Part shown: positions 1 through 54,700 of the stretch, piece by piece
Layout: each line of letters opens with the position of its first letter
Position numbering within the stretch: the stretch's first letter is position 1
Assembly: GCA_023053545.1 (NCBI GenBank)
Contig: JAKZAN010000002.1
Location: 2,154,375 to 2,218,374, forward strand
Source: Lepidurus packardi
Lineage: Eukaryota > Arthropoda > Branchiopoda > Notostraca > Triopsidae
Direction: 5' to 3'
DNA length: 64,000 nt
The notes under the pieces: model-generated
The model's input: the letters and a program-made list of their open reading frames with translations, nothing else
What the model was told of the DNA's origin: nothing
Databases searched by the model: none
Program-made: the position numbers and the translations under genes

Positions 1-2863
1 CTCAAGATAAAAACCTATTGACAACACTTAGCCATGTCCCTGCTTGTAAAGATCCGTCCCACTCGACGCAATGAAAAGGAAAAAAGTGATGAGGCTGTGG
101 CTTTTCTAATAGTCAAGTATTCACTATTGACAAAAGAGTTGCTCGGTGGGGGAGAAGGGACACACAAAACGCACGCACACATACAACCCCACCAAGACAA
201 AACAAAGAGGGTTCCTAAGCACATCACGTTCAGCCACCAGTCACGAAGCACTCTTTGACTTGCTATCCTTATCTTCACCAGTCCTAGAGTCAAACATTGC
301 CAGCCCGCAACCTCGCAAAACTCAACCTCCAGTCAAACAGTTTGCTCAGAATCAACGACCAGGCGATCCCCATACACGCCTCAAGGCTCCCCACCAGAGG
401 GCTCTGGTTCAAGCATCCCTTTGACTTCCGTTAGCTTCAACGTCAGATTATCCAAACAAGTAAATCCTTCTATGTGCTATACCCCATATGGTAGCAAAGG
501 CTTTACCCCAACAAAAAAAGGAATGGGAAACGACTTAAGCCAACCTAAAAAAAACCTAACCCATTCCTTGACCTTGCTCCTGTCAATATTGCAAGTAGGA
601 CTTTCCGGTGGCAATCTTTTCCTGCCACGCCAACTTGGACTCGTATACGTCAAGTCGCTGTCGTCCAAGAATTTAAAGCTGTTTACTTTCAGCTAACGCC
701 TTCCGCGTTCTTGGTTACCTACAACCAACAACCTTCTAGGTTTCTCCGCCTGTGCGACCCTTTTTATTGCCCTCCAGGGTATATCCACATGAATCTTTCC
801 GGTACTCTCGACTCTCAAAGTTCCTTGTTTGTCTTATTCTGAAGGGCGGACACCCGATATGCCTGTAAACCCCTACGCGAACTAATAAGGTCTGGCGTGG
901 TAAGAGAGGGGAAGTGGCGGGTTCTTTGAGGTCGGTCATCTGGACAGTCGATTTTGGAGGCCACGCTAAAAACAGGGGTGAAGGGGTAGCTGGGTCGTAT
1001 CATATCACTCAAGCGGTTTTACACGGCCCCTATCTTAACTACCTTAGCTGGTTTGTCGCCTGAAATAACGGTCGCTCTCGACTTGGGTAAAAGACAAGCA
1101 ACTCCCAACGCTTGGCGGATGTACTCCGCAATCCAATGTCAACTTGCTTTGCCAAAGCCAGCAAACCCAATCAAATCATCTGGATTCATGTTTGGGTGTG
1201 TGTACCACATACATGTACCCGACTCGCAGAATGTCGCCTTTCTCCCTTTAATTCTTAGCTTAATCTTCGTCACGCTGTTAATTATGCTCTCAAGTTTATT
1301 CAAGCAAAGTGCCAAACTTTGGGAGGAGTGGGTAAAATGTCGACTATAACCTTTTGCAAAAACTTTATTACCCTTCGTCCAGAATGGATGACAGGAAGAA
1401 AAACTGAGCCCCTTGACTTTGCCTCACCAACGCCTTTACTACTTGGCTAACTGCGCCGTTAAAAAGAAAAGGGGCCCAAGACCAAGACCTAGAAACCAAT
1501 TTCCAGCCTGGTGAGATGGAGTATTCCTTTTCACCCGACTCGGTTTTCTCTCCTTCTCTTCTGTTTCTTATTTCTAGTACAAAGTCCATCATATTAAATC
1601 CTGGCTGAAACCGCCCCCTCCCCCTAAAAAAAAAAACAAAAAAAAACCTTGACCTCCAAAACGAATTTCGTATACTGGCCATCACGACGAGTGCATCTTA
1701 CATTTTCGATGGCTGCTGTTTACCATCACAATCTACATCCATCACTCTCCCTTCTTCTACTATCAGCAATTTAAAAGCGCGCTCTTTTTCCGCCCAATAT
1801 CCAAACGGTTCCTTTTCTTGGATGAAAGTTTTATTCTTTCATAGTTTCGTAGTCTAGTCCATGTTCCCTTTCAAAAAGATAGCTTCCAATTGTGGTCATG
1901 TTTATCTGATCGCCACCAATGAATCCATTAACCTTCCTCTCCAACTCGTGCTTTAGCCCCGGGTTAAGTCGGGTACCCTGCCAAAGCTGATCCTTTTCGG
2001 ACTCGACCACGACGGTCTCTATCCTATATCTTAGCCCCAGGCAATGGCTTAAAGACGGAAAACGTTGCGTAGGATTTTTTTTTATTTTAAAAGGTGATAG
2101 CCAGCCAAAAAAATTGGGACGGGGAAGTTTTGGTAGGTCGCCAAGGGCGAGGAGGGTCCGAAGCTTGCAAAGATGCATCGATTTATCAGATGGTAATGTC
2201 CCGTGTCTTTCCAGTGCACGGAATCGGATTTCTGTCGAGGAAAAGGCAAGTGAAAAGGGAACGAAAAAGGAGAGAGATGAAGAGGAAAACGGTGGTTGGG
2301 CGGTTCGGTCAGCTCAACGCAGTGGCCAAAAGTCTGCAAACGGAGCAGAGGAAGAGGCCGGAGGGTATGTGCCTCTCGTTCCAAAGGTATACTCAGGGTT
2401 ATGGTGTCTGACCAGTGGAAAATATCGTAAAACGTAAAAAGCCCAAAGAGGCGAAAAATCGAAAGAATTTATTTTCCCTTCCGTATCTCACTCTCGCTTC
2501 TTCTCCTTCCTAACCTCTCTTGCTCTCTCTTACCCCATGTAGAAGCCGGGAAAACCGCTCAAAGTACAGACACCATCAACTTTGTTCAATCTTCACATCC
2601 ATTAATCTCGTAATGTCTTCTTTTGAGGGGGTGGAGAAAAGGCAAAGAAAAAAGGGGGAAACCCCTGATTTAGTGATTTTTTTCAAAGACTGAAGCGAAT
2701 AAGAGGGGTTTGGGTGATGGTGGTTCCTTGCGGGAGGGTCATAAAGCAAACGCATGTAGTTTCTCTTGTCGATTTTATGGGCCCAAGCTTTTCCCTGGGC
2801 TTTCGTTGTCTCCCTGAAGCATCCACACACGCATCATTGATGCCAAAGCCATGAATTGAGTTG

Positions 2864-2916
2864 TGAAAAAGAAAGAGAAAAGGACGGGAAAAGAGGAGAG
2901 AGGGGGGAGAAAAGAC
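2864..2916. repeat. purine-rich tract
   Basis: Almost every base on the plus strand is A or G, with only isolated pyrimidines. Similar but shorter tracts occur near 2230-2300, 6640-6680 and 17450-17510. No coding signal accompanies them. Mirror-like oligopurine stretches of this kind can form triplex DNA, but nothing here shows that they do. Confidence 0.6.
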
Positions 2917-5698
2917 AACATCCTGCAAAGAAAAAGGATAAAAAAAAGTGGTGACGAAGACGAAGAAAAAGAGGCACCCTCTTACTTCCCTTTAGGCGAT
3001 ACCGCCTTAGGGTCCAAATTCCGACCGCTAGGGCAAAAGCTCTATAATGGCCACAGGATTCGATGGTTAAGATCCTCCCCTTTTTCATTCCAGGCTATTG
3101 GACGGGTAAAAACGAAACAAAAAATCCGTCCCTTTCTTTTTACACGCACTCTTGGCTTATGTTTTGAATGCAACATCCGGTAAACCGCGGGCGTTTTGCC
3201 CAGTTGAGGATGGTCCCAACTCACCCTCAGTTCGCCACCCCGGTCTAAGATATGAGTCGCTTTTCGGTAAATTATATTACTAGAGGGGATTGTTGCTAGA
3301 CGATTTGGCTGCTGTGGCCAATCGTGCATAGACAATGAGATCGCTCCTCGTGCATCTCATTGAGCCCATAAACATGAGGGTTTGGGTGCCTTAATCTCTT
3401 TTTTTTGTCTGGTAAACGCCCGCCATTTCAGGGACTCCTTTTCTTACCTTTTGTTCGGAGGGGTTAAAAGGGGAAAAGTCGAACAGGTAAGAAAGATTAT
3501 CTTCGCCTCTTAACGCCCATTCGAGGCCTTCGCGTGAGGGTCCAACACGCCATTTATTTGCCCACATTTAGAAGCTATAATGGCGTGGAAACGGCTCTGC
3601 ATTTACCGGAGGTCTCTCCCCCTCGTTAAAGGTCCAAACCCACGCGAATCCCGTAACGTATACAGAAGGATACAGCAGGCGGGTACGGAATGCAGATTAT
3701 AACGACCAGCAAGCGTGTCAAATGACCAATAACTAGAGGAAAACCCTACGCGATTAAACGTGGCACGAACTACCAGCCCGCAACTCAAGACAGTAAAGAC
3801 CGATACCCTTGTAAACACAACCAAAACAAGGGGAAGAAGTTTTTACTACCTATGTTATTAACGCAAGTATATCTCTGCCAACATAACTAGCTACAGTCTG
3901 TCTTATTTTCCTTAAGAATAGCGAGGGATACCCTGTTCGCCTAAGTGGAAGTAACGCTACAAGTCCGGTTTAGGACCCAAGAACTCAATCGCTTGGCCTT
4001 CACACTTTCACTGTTGGACTTCGCGGTAAGGCGCGCGGGAGTTACGCAAATATCTAGGTCAGTGGCCACTTACCAATCCCGTACTCCGCCAATGTCAATA
4101 ATTGTACTAACGTCTACCTTAAGTAATTTCATTGCTAGGCGCCATTTATTTTCTTTTGCTACTGCACGCCGGAATAAGGCAACGATTAGTGATGGCCTTA
4201 TAAACTTTCATTGTTGGCTGACATTGTTAGAGCCCTGTTTTTTGTTTTCTTTTGCTTAATACAAGACGGAATAATGCAAAGAGCTCCTGTTAGGAACAGA
4301 CTGGGGAAACACCTGAATCCTGAATCCTGAATATTTAAATCAACTTCCGTATCGTTTAGTAACGTCATGTAGTATATCCACCCTCCTTGAGACCCCGAGT
4401 GTATCTCTTAATTCCCTGACAGGTCTTGCGTTCCTGAACCGAAATTAAAAGTGCGCTCATCTTCGGGGCTTGCAGGGTAGTCAGAAAGGGGGGCGGGGAC
4501 GATACCGTGCGGATAACTGAGAATCTGACAAGTTTTATTGTCGACAGGCTGAAAGTATATACCAAAGTTGGGTGACGGAGGCGTAGAAGGCAATTCCGAG
4601 CAAGTTTGTCAACTTGGTGGTAAAGCTCTAGCGATGCATCCCATGAGACCCAATCAATACATCAACACACTGGTGCTGCCAACACTCCTTCTCCCCCGCC
4701 GAAAAACCCAACGCCGGGGGGTTAACACAGTCGCACGGAACTTGGGGCGGTTGGGGTTGGGGTTGTCATGCCCGGCTTCGCAACCATCCGAAAGCCCCCA
4801 GGCGCCGGGGACCTGGGCTACGGCTCTTGCAACTTTTCTTCTCCACTGGCTGTCTTTTCCTCACGAGCGAAATAAGGGAAAAGACTCGATTTTGCTTTTC
4901 CTCTTTTTCTCCATTTCCCTTTTGCTCCCCGAGAGCGAGTTTATAGAAGGTGGGCGAAGAGACAGATAGAGGAGCTTGCTGGAGGGACAAGGGACACGGG
5001 ACAAGGGAATGCTGAGACCCTGCTTGGTTTAAAGGGGGTGAGCTAGAGCAAGGGGTTAAAAAAGAAACACAATAATAATAAAAAAGTGAAGAGGACGACG
5101 AGACTGAGCTTCATCATCACGTTGCACGCACACTTACGTCTTTTTTTCCGGGCCAACAAATAAGGCAACCCCAAGAAAACCCACAACGACAAGCTTTCGC
5201 CATTCTGTCCATGTATGCTGCAACGACTACAGGCTCTCATCTCGAGCCAGAAAACATTTTTATAAAAAACGGAATAGACCGCACATTAAACAAAGAATAC
5301 AACGACATGATAATCGTCCTCCAGCCAGTTTCCATCGCATAAAACTGGCCTAAATCTGAACTAATTTAGAAGAAAAGACGGCGTCTACCATATCACGCGA
5401 TAAGTCAACGTCCCTAATCATCAACAGCTGGTGTTTGCCCGTCAGTATCATAACAATCTTCAAACCCGTAACTCTTGCCACTAAAACCCCTCCCTCTATT
5501 CTGCAGCAAACGTTTTCCTCTTTTTTTTTGTGCTCTTCGGAAAGGACTTTGAGTCGTAAACTAGCGACCACGCGAAGAATCTTAACGTCAAACTTAAACA
5601 ACTGCCTGTTATTGGCTGACAAACAGGCAATTTATAGTCAGACCTAAAGAGCTTCCGCGATCTATAAAAGAAGGGGGTCGCCTCAGGCTATAGCGTCA

Positions 5699-5718: not shown

Positions 5719-8700
5719 TTCCCTTTTCAAAACCTTGTGGTCAGTGGTAGACCTACTCAGTACAGTTTGCCAACAAATGGGGTTGCAGGATATCTTAGTA
5801 GAACGTGCGCTTGCTGTGGAAGGCTTCCAAAATGCTTCCTAGAGACCTTAGCGACTTCATAAATGAAAACTTATAGCTGCGTATCACTATTTTGGGTCGG
5901 AGAGAAGGTCTTCCAGCTCATGCATAACTTTATAAAAAGACATTGTGAGTCTTTATTGCGAGGACCGGAACTATAGCTGAACTTTACCCCATTTGGAAAC
6001 TGAATGTGCTAACCTGTGTCATAAGACCATTGAGTTTCCTTACTAGTGCTAGGATAGCTTGGAAACTAAGCTGTTTGGGATAGACGGCGTGAGAATCGCC
6101 TCAGCAATCCCACGAATTACCATCCGGCCCAACTGGCTAAAAATTTTACACCCTAACGGAAACTCATGCATAAAGCTAGTGACATCTTGGACTTTCTTTA
6201 TTTTCTTAATGCTTCCTTACTTTTGTGTAAAACTAGACTAGCTAAGGCGAGCCAAAGGTAAAGGAACGACTGCCGGTCCGAGGAATGCCGAGGAGTCCGA
6301 GTCTTAAAAAGGGAGAAAAAGACTTTTTTTTTTTACCCCGTCCCCTGACTAGCACATACTAAGTTCAACTGGTACATAAGGTCCTGAGGTCTTTTTTTGC
6401 CACTTTTTTGGTGGAAGTCAAAAGCTGCTCCCAGGGTTTAACCTACTGCAACCTCGGTGAGATCCGCTGGTCCAGTAGACTGCGCCTCACCCTTATCCCC
6501 TTCAGGGTCCGGGGCATTCTGGCATTGCAGGGGCTAAGGTTTTCTAGCATTGCCAAATTTTTCAAGCGTTCTTGCTTCGTGCCAGTCCCACTGCTGCTGG
6601 CTTATCTTTTTCTCTTCCTCTCGCACTTCTGCTTTAGCGAGGGAAAGAGAGGGCGGAGAGACAGAAAGAGAGAAAAACCTCCCGGCCTAAAGCAACCAAG
6701 GAATTGTACCCGACGACACAAGAAGAGGGGAAAATGGAGGGCTTGAAACCACCAACTCCTTCGTCTTATTGATTTCTTTAGCTGGCAATGACGTGCGTTC
6801 CCGTTTGCCTCGAAACTTGTCACTTTATGGAGTCGAGCTCTCTTCCTAATTCGAATCACAATGATTCTAAAAACTTGGGAATACCCCAATTTTTCTGCCA
6901 TGGAATCTCATTGTACTCCTACCACCGCAAGTCCTTGGAATACCATCGAAACTATTGCAAGGGACAGACTTACACATTTCCGTCTTTCGCTTTCTCTACA
7001 TTTACTCAGTCTGACTGGAAGGTATAATTTGAGTTCAAAGCTAGTAGCTTTGTCTTCTGGGTAAGATTCTCACAGCTTCGTTTGCTTGCTTTATGATATA
7101 CTTGGTGCTTGGGATTGTGAAACTTGTAGGAAATCATGGACGAAAGAGAAACATGGGAAAAGGATAGAGCAACTATATGAAAGCGGGAGAGGATGGACGT
7201 CGTGGAGAAAATTGCCTCCGCACTGCCAAGAAGTGGCCAATAAATTGTAAGACAATTCCCTTTCCTTCGCTAACACTACTGCTGGAGAACAGTAAGTCTC
7301 CCCTCATTCTTTCCTGGGAAATCCAGGCCTTTTAGCTCGGTAAGGATTGAGAAGGTACCCTACGCTCGGTTCCTAAACCCAACAACCTTGTTCAACCCCT
7401 CCAAGATCCCAAGTAAGCTACGACCCAGTTGTTTCCACATAAGAATACAATCGACCATTACGTCAGGATCCCGGCCAGACCATTCCATGGACCTGCTACC
7501 AGTGCATGTATACAGAAAAGTTGACTAACAAAATGTGATATCCCTCTCTCTGGCAACAAAAAGGGTTATCCAGAAGTTGCGTAATGTGTGCGTGTTTGTG
7601 TTCCCTAAGTACGAGTAGGGCTACCAAGGACGTAAAGAAGCTCCTCTTTCTTATTTGAAGAGTACAGGTATAGCGAAAAGCAACAAAAAAGAACAAACAT
7701 TCTTCACCAAAACTAATTTAGTAAATTATTCCATGAATCTACATTACAGTTTCGATAGTTCGGTTCCACGGATTCCGAGAAAAGAGCTCGGGAAATGAAA
7801 GTGAGACCAAGCCGAAGTTACGTTACGAGTCTCGGTCAGATTGCTCACCCTCGTTCAGGGCTCTAGCTTTATTTCATTATTGCGTCATTGAATCATTGTC
7901 AAAACAGGCTGCAGTAGCGCTAAGATCCTACCCTGAACTCTATTAAGGAGGTCCATAGTCTTCCTCCTTAGATTTGGGAGTTACAAAACAACCATTAGGA
8001 AGCGATACTCTTACGCCAATGAGGGCTTTCGGCTCATTACATAATGGCCGAATAAAATAATCCGATGTGACACTCGGAATCCATTGTAAACGTTGACTCT
8101 TCTGAGTGACTTGATCTTCATTTACTGTTTTAGTAGTGTCAATTCCTACCGACCTAAAAACGTAGTGAGGGTCAGCCAGTACCAGGAAAAAGAAACAGAC
8201 GGTTGCTGTAAAACAATGTAATATTTGTTTCGTCCCAAAGTCCAATTTCATTAACGTCCACATGATCTGAGGTATGCTCTGTCCCCCAAGTCCCTCTCAT
8301 CGTTTCTACATCGGATCTTCAATATCATAAGGCACCCTATCTAACCCTCGGGGCTGTAATGGCCGTCCTGGTTACATATTACGAGCACCAGATACGCTCT
8401 CCTTGGCGACTAATCAAGTTAGCATATGGGGTGGGGGCGTTCGAGAGTCCCAAGTTGGGAGCGACTCCGACGATAGCCATGTGGGACAACACACCATGGA
8501 CACGTCAGCAGTGTCGGAAAGTCATCTGTTAAACTTCCTCTAACCAAAAACTCGCTGACGAACGAGCTACACCACCAAAACTCCCCTCCTTTCTCCATCT
8601 GATGGTAATCGCTGACGACTTGTCAACAATAGTTCAATGTTAGAAAGGACGTACAGTTATCGGTGTGCGACACCCCAAGCACCCCAGCGGGTTGGGAAGT

Positions 8701-11141: not shown

Positions 11142-14100
11142 CAATTTGGCTGAACAAGGAGCTTCCTACGTACGTCATTGTGTCATCATACAACCCAAAT
11201 TAAAACCCTACCTTAATAGCTCCTCCCACTCCACCTCCTCCCTCCGCTTCAGTTTAGTTCAGGAAAAAGTCCAAAATTTGGACTGACTGACTCGCTCATC
11301 GCTACCCAAGTTCGTGTATAGGTGAATGAGCTACTTGATGTGCCCCTTTACAACGGAACAACCCAACAAGAAAAGACCACCTGAGCAGCGAGAACTCAAT
11401 CCTTTTACAGTGCACATGCGCGTCGGCCATTTTTGTTTGCTTCCTTACTACCCCCTTAAAGAAGAAGCCAAGAAACGTTGGGAGAGGATAAAAAGGCGTC
11501 TTCGAATTTGTGCCATTTTGCTTTGGCTGTAACAAGTTATATCTTACCCCAGGGTGGGAGGGGTTGCCGGTTATAGACACACCAACAGAGGTTAGATGGA
11601 AAGAGCCCAAGAAGCAACCCCGAGTAACATTTTATGCCGAAGGAAATGAATGCAAAGAGAAAGACAGAAATGAGATGAGAGCCCAGTGTTTTCCGCTTCC
11701 CCCTCATCTCTTGCAAACTTTCAGTCACGCGGGTCTTTCTTCTTGCCGAGAAGTACTATCAAGAGTAACAAGACAAGAACAGCACCCGCGTGGCCGCTTG
11801 CGAACCTTACGGGCGGGGTGCTTACTGACACAGCTTGGCACGGCGCGTGGCTCGCGCTCCACAGCAACTAGGCTTTTCCAACGTTACCTAGCCGAACGCA
11901 TGCAAACCCTCATTTGACTCCATGTCTACTGCATTCCCACCTAATCACTAGGTTCTTTCAAAAGTTTTTAAAGGCCTCCCTCTCTATCTATTTCTGCATA
12001 TTTCCTATTTCTGCATATTAACGCAGAACTTCATTGCCCAAATGTTCCGGCTCTTCCTTCCTTCCCACGGCGTTAAAATAAACAGGTTGGCAGGCTGGTT
12101 TATATAAAAAGACGCCATCCTTGCCACTTAAAAACACCGATACCACCCAACGTACGTCTAACATTGCTGAAACCCACTCATTCTATTTCACTCAATTTAG
12201 CACTTGTTGATACTGTCGTTCCGGAGAAATGTCTTAACTGGCTACAAAATGCCATTTGTTTTGCAGGGCCGGCTAAACTTTTTCCTAGCTAATGTTCGGC
12301 AAATCAATAGCAAAATTTTACCGTATTTACGTATCATCTTACGAAAGTTTACTGAAACCCAAATTTTTTAAATCAATTTTATCATAAAATCGAAATCAAT
12401 TTTTATCGAAAATTCTAGTACAAATTTAAGTAACATACGAATAATTTCAACCAAACCTTACAGCCAACAAACCTTAAATGTAAAATTCTCCCAAATTTAG
12501 TACTTTAATTCCAGATTTACAAACATACTAACATTTCAAAAAGGGGTTTGAGATGTTGTTAATTTTATCAAAGAGGTCAGTTAGGCGTTACTAGTTAAAA
12601 GGACATATCACGCCTTATTACCGGGGAAGAAATTCCAAGGACGGACAAGAAGATTCTCAAGTCTCTGCAGACGGATTTGAGGAGGCACCAACTGTCACGT
12701 ACCCCTTCTCTACGCCTAGGGGCAATTGAGGGTGGCACGCATAGCGTGCGCAACCAGAAGGGGCGAGTGTTAAAAAGCTGTTCGAAAGGGATCTTAGCAC
12801 CTTTTTGCGTATAGCGTGGCGATGCGATTCATTTGTGTGGACTGGGACCTAAAAAAAAAACTGTAAACAAATTTAAAAAAAAAAACGAAAACGGAAACCC
12901 ACGCTCGGATGGGTTGGGAATTCTGCTCGCCCCAGCATGCCAAACTGACATAACTTTGGCACGCCTTCATGCATAAGAATAAGCTCTCGTTTATTCCCGA
13001 GATGGTCTATCCAAAACAAACCAAATAGATTCACTGAATATTTTTTCCTTTCCGCAAAAAAAAAAAAAAAAAAATTAACCGCATGTGGCTGGAACCACGT
13101 TAGCAGAGCGCAATTGGTTCCTGAATAGCAACTTGTAGATAGCGACACTAGCGCCCCCCGCTTCCGTTTCCTTCTTTTTCAATTTAAGAAGAGACCCTAA
13201 GAAGGATCTTTCTATTCCTATAATTTTTTTACCTATTTCCATTTCATCTGTTTTTTTACCCACAATTTTTTTAAGGTTTGGATTGTATGTTACGTGCGCT
13301 TTTGCCTCAAGATTTGTACAGAAAATAAATGGCGGAAAATCACAGGAATATATTTCCACGATCGTTCATCTCACGAGACCGGGATTGAAAAGGGACACCT
13401 TCCATTATGGACGGTATTAATCACACAAGGGTTCGATGCAGTGCTATGCTTGGCATTCACCGATTGCGGCATGTAGAAGAGCGAGAGGAGGCCAAAAGCT
13501 TTCCTACAACTGGCCTCGCTGGCCTATAGCGCCTGCATCATCTCTTCCGTCTTCTTTCGCTTTTATATATTTGCTTCGACACACCACTCACGGATTCCCA
13601 TCCAGAGCTTGCTGTTAGAGTTTCTTTGCCCGACAGTCATACCATACCAGTAGAACCCCCACCCCAAGAGTGCAGTACATGATGTGAATAAGTAAAAAGG
13701 TGGCTACACCCATCGAACCTTACACACAAGCCTAGATGGGCTTTTGTTTGTGTAGGCAGTATGACCGCCGGATTTACGTCCGTATTACCAAGCGGCCACT
13801 GGTACCGGCCGTACTGGTACAATGCGGTCGTACTAATGCGTCTCCTATAAGGCATACGCATCCATCCGTCCAGTAGCATCTTTATTGATCCCTGGCAACC
13901 TAACAAAGAAAAATAAGTTTCACCTCAAAACAGTCTATTTATATGGCGGCCGCTAGGGTCAACTCTGCCTGCCAAGTTTTTCGCTGTTATGCGACCCCGA
14001 TGGGGGTTTATCGCCGATTCGTCAGTCTTGGGATATCTTTTTCCACTATAGCGAGAAAATTTAGCCCGGAGACTTGGTGAACTTCCTGGGGTTCACGAGG

Positions 14101-44250: not shown

Positions 44251-45997
44251 ATGCCTTATTGCTGTGTTCCTCTGTGTACGTCGCGCACGTGGGGGTCAAA
44301 TCGGTTGAATCAGAGCCCAAAAATCTCGTTCCATAAAGTTCCAAAAGATCAGCAGTTACTAAAGATATTTGTGTTGCGGATTAGACGAGACGTCGGTCCA
44401 AATTTCACGGTAAATTAACTCAAATCCACAATGTTTCATTTCTAAATGACTAAATTTTTAACAAAATTTTCAGGTCACTGAAAGAACAGTAATATGTTCC
44501 AGGCATTATGAAGTCAAGGACTTTTATGTTTACGAACCTCCATCAGGAAAAAGAGAACTAAAACCAGGGGTTTTGCCCTCAGTTTTTGACTTTAAACCAA
44601 AAGCCAAGCCTAGGAAGTCACCAAAGAAGCAAGAGTTACCCAGCGAAATATTTCTTGGGCACGAAGATCTCAGCCTTCATGTAGAGACTCCTTTGCCAGA
44701 GGACGAAATCGCTTCCTCTTCCAGCTGCGAATGTGTTGAGCCTGCTGATCAACCGGAAAAATTTCCTGAGACATGCAATATGAAACTAGAAGACCCCACA
44801 GGCGATGAATTAAAGTCCCAGTTAGAAGAAATGAGGAAAGAGAAATTCTCATTACTCCATGTTTTGGCAAAAGAAAAACAAGCTAGGAACAACGCTGAAA
44901 ATCAAATCTCCGCACTTCAAAATTCTTTGCAAGAAGTGCGAAAAGAACTTTCAACGGCTCGTATTGAAATAGAACGTTTGAAATCGTGCCAAATGTCGTA
45001 TGCATGATTGAAAGATAACCGAAACTTGCTTAAGTTATACACCGGCATGGAATCCGATAAGGAGTTTGAAGGCCTGTTGAATTACTTAGATCCCGGGAAG
45101 AACGGCGAAAATATCATCCAGTGGCGTGGGCCTGAAGCCACGAACCTGAATGCCTTACCTACGTCACGAGGGAGACCTCGAAAGATGAGTTCTGCTGACC
45201 AGCTTTTGTTGGTGCTTTGTCGGCTTCGCTTAAACTTTTTAGAGAAGGACCTGGCGCATCGATTTGGTATTAGTTTATCTACAGTCAGTAGGACATTCAC
45301 CAGCTGGATAAACTTTATGTATTATCGCCTTGGATGCTTACAGCTGTGGCCACCGAAGAAGTACATTGAAGAAACGATGCCAGAGGAGTTGCGGGAAAAT
45401 TATCCATCTACAAGGGTGATTATCGACGCAACGGAACTCAAGTGAGAAAACCCTTCTTCTTTCATGCTCAAGACTGGCCTTTACTCGTTCTACAAGGGAA
45501 CGCATACTTTTAAGGGCCTCCTCGGAATTGCACCAAATGGACATGTAACTTTTGTTTCCGCGCTGTACTCTGGGTCAATCAACGACGAAGAAATCACAAA
45601 GCGATCCGGAATCTTGAATCAGGTGTATGATGACGGAGACTCGATCATGGCGGATAAGGGTTTCAATATAGAAAAGGCTCTGCCAGAGGGTGTATTGCTT
45701 AACTTCCCACCATTCAAACAAGGGAATCGACAATTCAGCAGAGCGGAGATACAGAGAACACAAGAAATAGTGTCCCTACGAGTTCATGTCGAAAGACGCA
45801 TAGCAAGAATTAAGAACTACAGAATCTTGTCACAGGTTATTCCACAATCCTTAACATGCCTCGTGAACCAAATATGGACGATTTGCTGTATTCTGTCAAA
45901 CTTCCAGACTCCCCTCATTAAGCAGCAGACGGAAGATCCACTGGAGTCTGTAGTATATTTTTCGGACGAATACTGTAGTGATTCAGAGGAAGATTGA
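44251..45997 (+). pseudogene. THAP-domain DDE transposase with two in-frame TGA stops
   Basis: Exon 1 (44251-44409) starts at an ATG and gives CCVPLC, the first half of a C2CH THAP zinc finger. Exon 2 (44474-45997) completes it with VICSRHY. An acidic and Lys-rich linker, a coiled coil (about 44810-45000), a helix-turn-helix region and the DDE_Tnp_4 catalytic domain follow. The catalytic acids are visible: D in VIIDATEL, D in IMADKGF and E in HVERRI. The frame is continuous from 44474 to 45997 except for TGA at 45005-45007 and 45443-45445; the residues around both stops continue the family sequence, so these look like point nonsense changes. AATAAA follows at 46057. The protein would bind the transposon ends and cut them. 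The stop positions leave no intact catalytic protein. Confidence 0.88.
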
Positions 45998-46669
45998 CAG
46001 CGTTTCTGAGCAAATTATGTAAATTCATACAACTTTGTATTATTGCGGTGCATATTAATAAAGTCCATTAAGTCAACTTTAGTTTAAACATACATCTGCA
46101 TTGTTCACTCATAAATTTTTTATTGCACTTTTTAGAAAAAAACTTATTGCGAAGAATTATCACAAAACGTAGGAATTATTAACTGGACGTTGCACTAGAT
46201 GATAACTGAAGACTATTTTTTGGCAGTCGTTGACGGCTCCGGAGCGTCAATTTTGGTGAAGTAAGGGAGCGCATGCATGAAATAGACACTATTCAATTTC
46301 AATGACATATCTTTCCATTTTGTGAGATCAAAAGCTATACGTTCTATAATCAAACCTTTGTAGGTAAACACGACAAAGTCGCGCCACTGAGTGCCAGACA
46401 AAGCCATTTGGCCCATTACTTGGAAGTAATATCCATGAGAGCGATCTAAGCAAGGAGACCCTTTAACTAATTTCATGTAGAAAATGGGTGATGACAAACA
46501 CATTTTTGCAGTTTGGTTCCGTAGCGAGTAAGGGCACTTCAACTCAGCCAAGCCATGAGGAGGATTCTCCAAAGGATCAAATACTCTTCTATCGGGGCTT
46601 GCAGCTAGCCAAAAACACTTCGGATTTATCACAAGGCCGCAGAAGTCCACGGTGACACGATGACTAAGG

Positions 46670-46723
46670 CGATACATAGTACCCTGATAACGCTAACGAT
46701 ACATAGTACCCTGATAACGTACC
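46670..46723. repeat. 27-bp tandem duplication inside the YqaJ-protein gene
   Basis: A 27-bp unit (46670-46696) is followed directly by a second copy whose first 23 bases are identical (46697-46719). The unit length is a multiple of three, so the frame is kept, but the junction creates a stop codon on the minus strand. Confidence 0.85.
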
Positions 46724-47819
46724 CAGGCTGCGGCTATTACTTCAAACTTCTGACCAAACCTGACCTGCCTTATTCAGCTCAAGTCATTGTCCTCTAGGAT
46801 ATTCGACAATCTTGCCGATGTCCACACTGTGCACCGTTTCACTACCTGTCCAAAGGTACTCGCCGTTAGTCTGCAGAATCGAGTAAATTCATCAGTGTAT
46901 GTAAATGTTTGGGTACTGCACCTTTGTTTCTTTACCTGAATAAACGTTCTTGTTTCCATAAATCGCTGGATGACTGTGAGCGGCTGTTTTTTTCTACGTG
47001 TCTTGCCTTGGTAATGTCCAGTTTAAGTTTCTTTAGCAAAGCACATTCGGACGGGTTTTTTGGTGAGTATCCAGATTCTTCAGGTACGTGCTGAAAACCC
47101 GTTCCAAGCGTTTTGGGGTAAAGAAGGAATTGACACTCTTTGGCGGATGTTTGTTTGGATCTACGAAGATAATGACTTCAGTCATTGCATACTCATAATG
47201 GATTAAAACGGATAGTTACTTACGTCGTAGTCAGACTCGTTAGTATTTAGTTGGTACGTAAGTGTTGACGACCTTGGTACCTCCCCGAGACAGGTTAGCT
47301 CTCCCGAAGTGGAGGCCAGTGTTGCTGCGGTCTTAAGCATTTTTGCAAAATCGCTGTTCTCTGATTTAATAACCTCAGTTATCCCGATCATAGCATCCTT
47401 GTGTTCCAAACCAAACCGAGGCTTCTTGTACGGCTGGTACGAAGAGCAACCGGTATGGCTTCCGTCAGTAACACGGAACGTAAAATCATTCCGACTTCGG
47501 TAGCGGTCCCATTGCTGTGGTTTGCTTGTACAAGAAATCTCTGGGGGTACTTCATTGAATCCCTCTTTCTGACAATTATGCAGCAGTTTTAAGACAGCAA
47601 TTACATGGTTACAGTATCCGGGCTGTCCCACAGTGCATGAACAAGTGGCTGATTCAATTGCATCTCGCCACGAGTTGCAGACTAATGATGGCTTAAACGC
47701 AAGCTCTACTTGATGTGTTGCATCGTTTTTTCTGGAACTTCTAAAGCATTTTGCCAGAACGCATAGTTTTTTTCCACAAGGAAGAAGTAGGGTCTCAACT
47801 TCCGTAACATAGTGGTCTT

Positions 47820-48886
47820 TTAAAGGGGGAGTAAGGTACGAAAAAATAAAAAAATATGTTATAGAGGAGACCAAAATAAGTGTTCTGGCTGAAGAACCCC
47901 TATGTCAATTATGCATATTAACCGAGTAATTAATTATTTAGCGGTTTAAGCTCCGCCCCTTTCCGCCAAATTTCAAATTTTCCTATCCTTATAACATTGG
48001 CGGACAGTTGGCCGGAGGCCTAGCGACTTTACCTGTGAGCGCATTCAAAATCGATCCCAGATCTCATAGGGACCGTACCGTGACCTTTCTTTTGAATGCT
48101 TAAGCAGTTTTTTACGCGCTTTGGTTACTTCACAAACTTAATCACAAAAAACCACTTTTTCTTCGCGCCACGACGGGAATGTTCCGTTCTGTGGCTCAAC
48201 GAACGTCAACGCCGCGAGCGTGGAGCTCACAACCTGTGTCAGGATAGCCTGCCGGACTAACCGAAGAATCCGAAGAATCGCTTGAAACACTATCGTTATC
48301 ACTCATTTTAATTCAAAGCTTATGAAGACACAAACTAATAAACTAAACAAGCGAATAGTCAGCACGTATACAAGACCACGCTTTGGAATGTCGACTTTGG
48401 ATAACACGCGTTCCAAGGCTTCTTAGCCTAGCTCTCCCCAATATGTTAGTCCGGCAGGCTATCCTGACACAGGTTGTGAGCTCCACGCTCGCGGCGTTGA
48501 CGTTCGTTGAGCCACAGAACGGAACATTCCCGTCGTGGCGCGAAGAAAAAGTGGTTTTTTGTGATTAAGTTTGTGAAGTAACCAAAGCGCGTAAAAAACT
48601 GCTTAAGCATTCAAAAGAAAGGTCACGGTACGGTCCCTATGAGATCTGGGATCGATTTTGAATGCGCTCACAGGTAAAGTCGCTAGGCCTCCGGCCAACT
48701 GTCCGCCAATGTTATAAGGATAGGAAAATTTGAAATTTGGCGGAAAGGGGCGGAGCTTAAACCGCTAAATAATTAATTACTCGGTTAATATGCATAATTG
48801 ACATAGGGGTTCTTCAGCCAGAACACTTATTTTGGTCTCCTCTATAACATATTTTTTTATTTTTTCGTACCTTACTCCCCCTTTAA
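47820..48886. mobile_element. palindromic foldback element at a TTAA target
   Basis: Two 442-bp arms, 47820-48261 and 48445-48886, are exact reverse complements in my line-by-line reading, with no gap or mismatch, around a 183-bp non-palindromic spacer. The outermost bases are TTAA on both sides, then AGGGGGAGTAAGG and its complement. Treating TTAA as the target duplication, removal of the element plus one TTAA joins the flanking YqaJ-protein exon in frame without a stop. That is strong evidence for insertion into an existing gene. It has no coding capacity. TTAA preference is known for piggyBac, but the terminal bases do not match the usual piggyBac CCC start, so the family is unassigned. 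Confidence 0.93.
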
Positions 48887-49447
48887 GAAAAGCTCGCTAC
48901 GGTTAAAATGCCTATCCGATGTAGTTTGTGATTGAAAATACTCTTTGATCAACTGCTCTGAGATCCCTGGAAGCTTTTCTATACATTTACACCACACTTG
49001 ACTATTTACATGACTCATAGTTGTGCTAAAACTAAAAAAAAAAAGAAAAAAATAGGAGCTTCTACACTGAACCTTCTACACTGAACCTACACTGAAAGGA
49101 CTAGGGAGTGCTATTGCGCAAGATGGCGAATCCATAGTTTACATGCGCTTCACTAGATGCCACTGGTGAATTTGGCAAACGCTCTATAAGCAAAAGTAGG
49201 TGCTTCCGTGGCGTACCTTACAAACATGAAGCTGTTGGTACCTCCGCATCGACTTGTGGCGCTGTTTTTCACTAAATGTGTAACGAAAAATGCGTCTCGG
49301 AAATAGGCTTATCTTTAGACTTACATTGTAGGGTAAATTTAAATTACCTTGGTACTTATGTATAACTATTCCTAAATGTTACTAACTTTTGCAAGTTTGA
49401 TATTTTTCTTAACACGTTAAACTATGGCTCTTTCTGCTACAGCTACA

Positions 49448-51779: not shown

Positions 51780-54700
51780 ATGGCCCCTTTGCCCCTACCC
51801 TTGGAATCACACGGCCCAAGTTCTTCAGCAGCCATGGCTTCGGTTGGGGGTGGAAATGGTCCAACCATCTCGTTAGCAATGTTGATGGATTTCATTATCC
51901 AGCGCACTTATCATGAATTAACCGTGCTTGCTGAACTCTTGCCTCGAAAAACAGATATGGAACGCAAAATTGAAATCTTTCAATTTGCTGCCAGGACGCG
52001 ACAACTCTTCATTCGACTCTTAGCTTTGGTTAAATGGGCCAACAGTGTTTCCAAAGTTGAAAAGTCTTCGGTACACTGTTACCTTCACAATTTCATTCCT
52101 TTACTATCTGTTTTTGTTTTCTTTAGACTATCATGGCATTCTTGGATAAGCAATCAATGGTCTTTGTGGAAACCGCAGATGCTTTATCTCGAATGGCAAG
52201 AGAAACTTTGGTTCATGCCAGACTCCCAAATTTCCATCTGCCAGCTGCCATAGAAGTTCTCACCACCGGCAGTTACTCCAGGCTGCCGCTTTGCATCCGA
52301 GTAAGGCCCGTAAAACTCACTTGTAAACCGTTTCTAGGAAACATTAACTTTCCCCCAGGAAAAAATCATTCCTCCTGACCCAATTACTCCAGCTGAAAAA
52401 CGAAGTACTCTATTGCGCCTTAACCAAGTTATAGAGCATCGTTTGGTCACTAATCCCCTCCCGTTGCTAATGAGAAACTTGAAAATTGAAAATGGAAGAG
52501 TCAAGTTCATTGTCGAGCATGAATTCGAAGTTTCTTTGACCGTCATGGGAGATGATCCCAACATCCCTTGGCGTTTGCTCGAAATAGACTTCTTAGTTGA
52601 AGACAAGGAAACTGGAGGTAATAAGAGAAGTAGTTTAAATAAATTAAGTATTGAAATGTACCCAATTCGCTTTTAGTAATCGCATCTTTGCTCTATTTTC
52701 AGATGGCAAAGCATTGGTGCATTCCTTACAAATCCATTACATTCATCAATTAGTACAAACGCATCTCATTGATCACCCTCAACCCTTGGCGGAGTTGTAT
52801 ACAGTCTTGCATAATTTCTGCCAATCTCTTCAGTTGGAGGTAGAAATCGATTCTTTAGTTATCGTCACACAATCTATAGTTAGCTTCTTTACTTACCCTA
52901 TTTGTTTTCGATAGGTATTGCACTCTCAAACGATGCGATTATGCCAAGATCGTTTAGGAGACATGGTACGGGTGGAAGAATACGTTCCTGCGAAGCATCT
53001 AACTGTCTCTTATTGGAGAGAATTGGCCAGTCGCGAGCTCAAATCCGATTTAGGCTATCGATTGACAGTCCATGTTGACGCTCATGACCCTAGTCGCCTT
53101 CTTATGGTAGCCCACCATCCCCCACTGGCCTCTAAAGTAACGTTCTCTTTTTTGTACTCTTCTTTTATTCAATTTTGTTTGGTTTCGCAGGACTCGGAAC
53201 AAGCAGAAAAGGCAATTCGCTCCGACCAGCTTTCGATGGAGAAGCTGCTCATCCATACGGTCCACATGCGATCCAAAACGAAATTGACTGAGCTCAAACA
53301 AGAACTGCAAGCTAAATTAGGCAGCGATATTGAATGTAAAATGTGTACTTATTCCTGAAACTTCTATTTATTGTGTTTAAATGTTTGATTCGCTAAGGTT
53401 TGGTCCAAGGATCACCTGCTGTGCTCCACGTCCCTATTTTGCAGCCTTGTCTACGTTCGGAGCAGCTTCTCGTTACGGTAGACAGTCATACTGGCCACTT
53501 GCAAGCTCATTTGCCCCAAGATGATCCGCCAGCCAACTTAATGCATGATCTCAACCAAGCGCTGAACAACAATCGCGCGCAGTTCGATTCTTTTGTTTCA
53601 GAATTGCGCTTCTGGATAGTCCAGAAACGCTGCGAAAAAACCCTGCAACATTTGCCCGTTTCGTTGTACGATAAACTGCCATTGCTGATGAGCGCTGATC
53701 ATAGGTTGGCCAAGCTGGAGAAACATCGGCTCATGCTTCGACTCTACAAACATCCCAACACTGTTGTCGTAAGTCTTCAAACTTAAAAATATATTTTACA
53801 AATTTTTTACTTTCGAAAAAACAATTGAAATTTTGTTTCTCTCCAGGTTGTCGAGTTTAAGGACAAACCTGATTCTCCTTGCGAAGTGCAGTTCGTCTAT
53901 CACCTCATTACAGTACGTCCGTGTTCCATCGAAGATGATCCCCAAGATGAAGCGCCACAATCAGATCTCCCTAAGATGTACTTGCGAGTCTTAAATATTA
54001 TCGACATGGACTCATTTCTGCTCACGCATGGTCCCTTCACATCCCTTGATGGTAATAGCTCTTAAAACCCTTGATTTTACAAGAAACGGAAAGTTTTGCT
54101 TTGTTTTTCAGGTCAAGATGTGTCCGAGAAGATTCTAGGCAAACGAAAAGCCGCAATTGTGGGCAAAACAGAGGCGCTCGTGAAGAAAAGTCGGTGTCCT
54201 TCTTATATCTTCCCGGATTTGGCACATATGGTGGCTTTGTGTGATGAGCGCATCTCTTTTGCTGCTTTGGCAACCGAAGTAATGAAATCGTACCCAAATT
54301 TTTATTCTTTTTATACTTTATTTATATTTTAGCTGACCGAGAAGGAAATTCTGCACCAAGGGTTGTGCGTAGAAGCCCCAGGAACGAATTTAGCACTCAA
54401 AATCATGCAAATGCCCAACGTGGAAGGGATTGAACGCTCAGCCATGGTGCATTTACAGAAAACCTTGCTCTCCCTCACCTTCCGCATGCATTGCAAAGGA
54501 GCACGAGCTTGGATTGCTGAATTACTCTTCTATGGCACTCCTGTGCCCACGGTTGCCCCTACAGAGCAAAGTAAACCTTCTTTTCTTAGTTTAAGCCTGG
54601 GTATTTACGGTCTAAAATTACTAGGTAAACGTTTCCCAGTGTATTTGACTTATGAAATGAACAATGCAAGTGAAATGTCGCGCACAGTTGAAGCATTAGT

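Follow-up and report, generated by a model that had tools for sequence, protein, structure and literature searches.

A palindromic insertion in Lepidurus packardi is very probably a non-autonomous Kolobok transposon whose long inverted arms appear to change in concert

The window analysed here is a 64,000-nt stretch of contig JAKZAN010000002.1 of the Lepidurus packardi assembly GCA_023053545.1 (forward-strand positions 2,154,375 to 2,218,374). Within it, a 1,067-bp palindrome interrupts an exon of another transposon. An earlier note, made from the letters alone, had described exactly complementary arms with TTAA at both outer ends, and both statements hold: positions 48445-48886 are the exact reverse complement of 47820-48261 (442 nt per arm, 100% complementary), a 183-nt spacer lies between them, and each end carries TTAA. 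The arms make up 884 of the 1,067 nt, giving the long inverted arms of foldback-like elements. As a single DNA strand the palindrome has a predicted fold of -603 kcal/mol, a value without a shuffle control (length >1000 nt). Without the outer TTAAs, the element proper spans 47824-48882; it is 1,059 bp long, and its TIRs are 438 nt each. The division between TTAA and arm is conventional only, TTAA being self-complementary. The element ends are 5'-AG...CT-3' (AGGGGGAGTAAGG...CCTTACTCCCCCT), and a search of its arms for direct repeats of at least 20 nt was negative. The features are as follows, alpha and beta being the two subfamilies described below.

44462..45997, plus strand: host-transposon transposase ORFs with a partial, weak THAP match and with HTH_Tnp_4 and DDE_Tnp_4 matches (Pfam)
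46213-46692, minus strand: YqaJ match in a separate host-transposon ORF (Pfam E 0.0011, below cut-off)
47203..47819, minus strand: interrupted host exon, 3' part, its frame read through the empty site
47820..47823, no strand: left TTAA, target-site duplication (the empty site in a paralogue has one TTAA, here there are two)
47824..48261, plus strand: left TIR arm, 438 nt (442 with TTAA), beta haplotype (20/20 informative sites beta)
48262..48444, plus strand: spacer, 183 nt, without a recognised gene
48262-48265: 4-nt junction in the spacer, resembling short templated filler
48266-48444: part of the spacer, equal to element positions 4882-5060 of the full-length alpha copy L095 (0 mismatches)
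48445..48882, minus strand: right TIR arm, 438 nt, beta haplotype (20/20 informative sites beta)
48883..48886, no strand: right TTAA, target-site duplication
48887..49018, minus strand: interrupted host exon, 5' part, with a possible ATG at 49018

The interrupted host gene is itself part of a transposon, which we take to be ISL2EU-like. The THAP match on its plus strand is below the Pfam cut-off (E 0.004), and a SWIM-like Cys/His motif in the exon at 47203..47819 was recognised by eye, without a family search. A cellular gene lies about 2.8 kb from the nested transposons, represented by a MED14 exon at window 51783-52253 (Pfam E 2.8e-18). The host transposon exon (window 47710-49000) is multicopy: over about 220 nt, 15 further contiguous stretches match it at 95-100%, and another 8 do so at 72%.

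When the window element and one TTAA were deleted, the minus-strand frame stayed open across the joint, starting with MSHVNSQ and continuing through the interrupted host exon. This bears out the in-frame joint described in the earlier note. Moreover, the joined flanks with one TTAA exist intact in a paralogue of the host gene (C1:4152423-4152646, 224/224 nt, 100% identical), an empty site verified letter for letter in L099. A further 14 places matched the joined-flank query at 95-97% over at least 222/224 positions; among these 15 matches, the sequence was read for the first (C1:4152423-4152646). The empty site has one TTAA and the window element two, the 4-bp target-site duplication characteristic of Kolobok. 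The intact 224-nt site in a paralogue thus agrees with the earlier reading of a mobile element inserted in the YqaJ-associated gene of another transposon.

One arm, used as query against the genome, found 287 candidates. Scores were obtained for 40 of them, so that our copy counts are lower bounds. All 40 span the whole arm, and 33 reached the top score at 100%, the two arms of the window element included. The earlier note had proposed looking for other copies and their flanks: 14 further complete loci of the window type were compared, and all 15 copies, the window element included, have TTAA at both ends, with flanks that differ between sites. Thirteen of the 15, again counting the window element, are identical over 1,067 bp. 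Of the other two, L044 carries a single 1-nt difference, located in the spacer; in L048 a 7-bp unit is deleted at corresponding positions of both arms, and there is also one single-arm change. A half copy (L034, G000:C2:3017031) retains positions 433-1067 with 2 mismatches and has lost the other arm.

The terminal 17-mer TTAAAGGGGGAGTAAGG had at least 105 exact matches (54 + 51) in the 108.6-Mb assembly and its reversed-pattern control had none, which excludes chance. Among the matches listed, 36 were beta (rows without mismatch) and 45 alpha. The 17-nt pattern includes TTAA and is blind to copies lacking it; the arm search is able to detect such copies, and all 40 matches scored among its 287 candidates start at TTAA. 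One near-match to the terminus, at window 11443-11459, had no further similarity to eight family sequences and was set aside. The window element shares its ends with a full-length element, holds no gene and occurs in many near-identical copies, as a MITE or other non-autonomous element does. In the same assembly, G000 contigs C52, C43 and C214 gave COX1 matches without internal stops and are probably bacterial contigs; on other contigs, numerous COX1 fragments have in-frame TGA and are probably nuclear mitochondrial DNA copies. The assembly also contains innexins, a family that sponges and placozoans are not known to possess.

A relative with the same termini, another of the checks suggested earlier, is present as the 5,584-bp element L031, which has identical arms and a candidate transposase. 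Full-length relatives have about 4.5 kb between arms and 517-nt TIRs with TTAA. Two complete beta copies (L031 and L032; 5,584 bp) lie in opposite orientation, one nt apart; the arms of L031 are perfect over 517 nt, those of L032 have one mismatch, and over the outer 442 nt at each end L031 does not differ from the window element. A third beta copy (C8) has the same transposase stretch as L031 and would extend beyond its contig end. The alpha subfamily is represented by L095 (5,502 bp, arms 95% identical) and by an interrupted copy of similar layout, L094. Both complete beta copies lie inside a minisatellite with a unit of about 20 bp containing GAATTAATTCCTTACGGACT (by eye; L031:1204-1323 and 6908-7027, L032:1219-1338 and 6923-7042).

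L031 is laid out as a THAP exon, a transposase in two ORFs and a KolX-like ORF on the opposite strand. The THAP exon (L031:2083-2304; PF05485, E 4.2e-9), a feature of Kolobok, has a C2CH pattern by regular expression, and no AVPTIF box was seen in it. The KolX-like ORF matched P2RX7_C below threshold in L031 (E 2.8e-4) and L094 (E 3.4e-4), at 21.3 and 21.0 bits against a cut-off of 23.5, and had no match among PDB sequences. In the alpha transposase (L094), GDGQCDSPGH, ATDRH, DVWH, an H-H-C-H stretch and GEIEVHHS follow in order, by eye or regular expression; the assignment of these motifs to Kolobok is a match by eye rather than a phylogeny. Two genome relatives, 34% identical, retain the DG..DSPGH.AKY block. 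No Pfam or NCBIfam model matched by the transposase names Kolobok; in Pfam it matched PF20700 Mutator (E 0.018, below cut-off), and the NCBIfam search returned nothing useful. A single-sequence AlphaFold model of the alpha transposase had a pLDDT of 33.

L031, L094 and L095 each have a single break in the transposase frame, a frame change in beta and a TAA in alpha (present in 3/3 alpha copies). The break falls at roughly corresponding positions in the two subfamilies, with coding retained on both sides. Judged from sequence, a short intron of different length in alpha and beta would fit best; loss of function is possible.

Kolobok elements, as described in PMC9587614, are TTAA-specific, have 5'-RR/YY-3' ends and a C/DxxH motif and, in almost all members, a zinc finger before the last E; the Kol0 lineage adds a KolX protein with a P2X7 ballast fold. 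PMC6004289 reports THAP, DDE and H2CH motifs in Xenopus Kolobok, and T2-MITEs with TTAA and AGGRR ends. The ends of the window element follow the 5'-RR...YY-3' rule. Because of these termini and of the THAP exon, transposase motifs and weak KolX-like ORF of the full-length relative, we place the palindrome in Kolobok: it very probably belongs, as a non-autonomous (MITE or foldback-like) element, to a Kolobok family that has long TIRs and was active recently. The undescribed TTAA-targeting family suggested in the earlier note is thus unnecessary, and a new TTAA superfamily was rejected on the same features.

Comparison of alpha and beta revealed a second level of structure in the window element. 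L095 (alpha) and L031 (beta) differ at 20 sites per 442-nt arm, and the window element is beta at 40/40 of these informative arm sites. At the next 7/7 differing sites inward on the right, which fall in the spacer, it is alpha, and its remaining centre (179 nt) has no mismatch to L095. The breakpoints lie at arm positions 361-442 on the left and 361-449 on the right. Three of the four similarly sized alpha-arm MITEs (L050, L081 and L082) share this 183-nt spacer exactly; in L049, the remaining one, the arms are 454 nt long and the spacer departs from it by 7 substitutions and a 3-nt gap. The alpha MITE equals the full-length alpha element minus element positions 443-4881, plus 4 nt of filler. 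Read from these sites, the window element is a chimera, with an alpha-MITE centre between two beta arms. The full-length elements also look mosaic: compared by 250-nt steps, the divergence of alpha from beta is less than 2% at element positions 501-1250 and 8-18% at 1501-3500. Another element with alpha ends, L093 (C33:6430-13600; 7,092 bp), has about 5.6 kb of unrelated sequence inside, either a nested insertion or captured cargo. Compared with L092, its ends are 100% identical over the outermost 837 bp and 99.3% over the outermost 610 bp. The unrelated sequence contains three long plus-strand ORFs (1680-3032, 3002-4267 and 4316-5374), which have no Pfam match above cut-off (Agenet, E 3e-4).

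The full-length alpha and beta TIRs differ at 28 sites on the left and 27 on the right, with 27 common to both arms. The 28th is private to L095; another alpha element, L092, has perfect 517-nt arms. With 27 of 28 differences in both arms, independent drift of the two arms does not fit. The arms therefore appear to change in concert, but not in every copy. Perfect arms of at least 424 nt were found in 10/21 listed elements; in the others the perfect stretch is shorter. Single-arm changes occur in L032 and L048. Four of the five copies of the 1104/1105-bp alpha subtype are mismatched at one and the same arm position, 126, and the remaining copy has an indel. The arm match of L093 is broken at position 82, and L089, L090 and L091 have a perfect arm stretch of only 20-32 nt. 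In five older relatives (L089 and L100-L103) the arms are 62-82% alike, with uncertain right ends in L100 and L103. Such imperfect and older copies indicate that homogenisation accompanies active lineages, incompletely; assembly polishing may have removed some single-arm variants. At the other extreme, the alpha-arm element L088 (C2:3604681-3605628; 868 bp) is nearly a pure palindrome, its perfect 424-nt arms enclosing a 20-nt loop. The earlier note had offered recent insertion or homogenisation as the source of identical arms; both apply.

Perfect arms are typical of assembly fold-backs. However, 15 differently flanked copies, full-length relatives with about 4.5 kb between arms, other subtypes carrying other spacers and the intact empty site all argue for a real insertion, as the earlier note had held; we rejected the artefact, which has almost no probability left. 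Equally improbable is a non-autonomous piggyBac, likewise TTAA-specific and compatible with the TTAA duplication seen here. The ends are of the RR/YY type, which is that of Kolobok rather than piggyBac according to PMC9587614 and agrees with the earlier observation that they are unlike piggyBac termini. In addition, L031 encodes THAP, its alpha relative has DVWH and HHCH-type motifs, and general Pfam searches, not specific to piggyBac, had no piggyBac family among their hits. We rejected this identity on the RR/YY ends and the THAP domain, neither termini nor transposase being those of piggyBac.

Two further alternatives concern history rather than identity. The arms might be identical solely because each element type was born recently with freshly duplicated arms, without ongoing homogenisation. 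The multi-copy types with perfect arms are indeed young and their copies identical, the arms of old relatives are unlike, and 4 copies of the 1104-bp subtype still carry a mismatch in one arm. Yet alpha and beta each have perfect or near-perfect 517-nt arms while differing from each other at 27 sites in both arms, meaning that equality of the arms was restored, in one lineage or both, after the alpha/beta split, and L048 carries its 7-bp unit deletion identically in both arms. We therefore regard recent birth alone as unlikely and favour concerted change of the arms. For the chimera, the arms of an alpha MITE could instead have been converted to beta, first one arm and then the other by arm-to-arm copying. 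This accords with the concerted arm change observed and with both breakpoints falling within one short arm interval (361-442 left, 361-449 right), but it needs two conversions against one for a swap of the centre; it is a real possibility, though the less favoured one.

In the centre-swap account, the common arms may have let gene conversion or homologous gap repair form the chimera, most simply if an alpha MITE served as repair template for a broken beta element, whose centre was thereby replaced. Transposase from full-length copies would move the window type by cut-and-paste into TTAA. Arm-to-arm copying, by gap repair with template switching or by hairpin mismatch repair, would keep the arms of active elements alike and would cease to work in old copies. 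For the mechanism of homogenisation, be it gap repair, template switching or hairpin repair, we can offer inference only. A stronger proposal, that Kolobok transposition itself rewrites the arms, with excision and gap repair copying one TIR onto both ends, we consider a long shot.

Kol0 elements (PMC9587614) resemble this family in TTAA duplication, 5'-RR...YY-3' ends and THAP and, less securely, in a second ORF (here weakly KolX-like) and in the DDE motifs, where DxxH and a zinc knuckle ahead of E were assigned here by eye. Unlike them, the present family has 517-nt near-perfect TIRs and foldback-like short offspring. Xenopus T2-MITEs, as given in PMC6004289, are likewise non-autonomous, presumed Kolobok kin, with TTAA and AGGRR (here TTAA-AGGGG); arms here are 442 nt and perfect, and the Xenopus table gives 16-nt TIR ends only. 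The foldback-like Galileo, of the P superfamily, has long TIRs through which its authors propose exchange, two-TIR copies, and chimeras with both TIRs from one subfamily and another centre, according to PMC3573991; all three are found here. Galileo has 7-bp duplications, whereas ours is a Kolobok family with TTAA. The foldback element Tetris (PMC4079207) shares a short gene-less centre within long inverted arms, but its arms hold tandem repeats of about 220 bp, whereas direct repeats of at least 20 nt were not found in the arms here and a candidate source transposase exists in the same genome. No title describing a foldback-like Kolobok was found in a search with Repbase and most subscription papers outside its scope, which is weak evidence of absence. 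In the accessible parts of two other papers, the long TIRs of PMC6428116 belong to a mariner, and foldback occurs in PMC8268682 in the reference list only.

We conclude that the window element is real, recent and for the most part ordinary: it is a new member of its family, one that documents arm homogenisation well. It warns that perfect palindromes of such size in assemblies may be genuine young transposons. For Kolobok, the family offers a clean natural case of concerted long TIRs and centre swapping in one genome with candidate sources present, paralleling the suggestion made for the P superfamily from Galileo that long TIRs evolve together while centres are exchanged. If transposition does rewrite arms, active elements would retain perfect 0.5-kb arms and only retired copies would diverge, arm haplotypes would travel between elements as cassettes, and arm identity would serve as a clock of last transposition as well as a source of new subfamilies.
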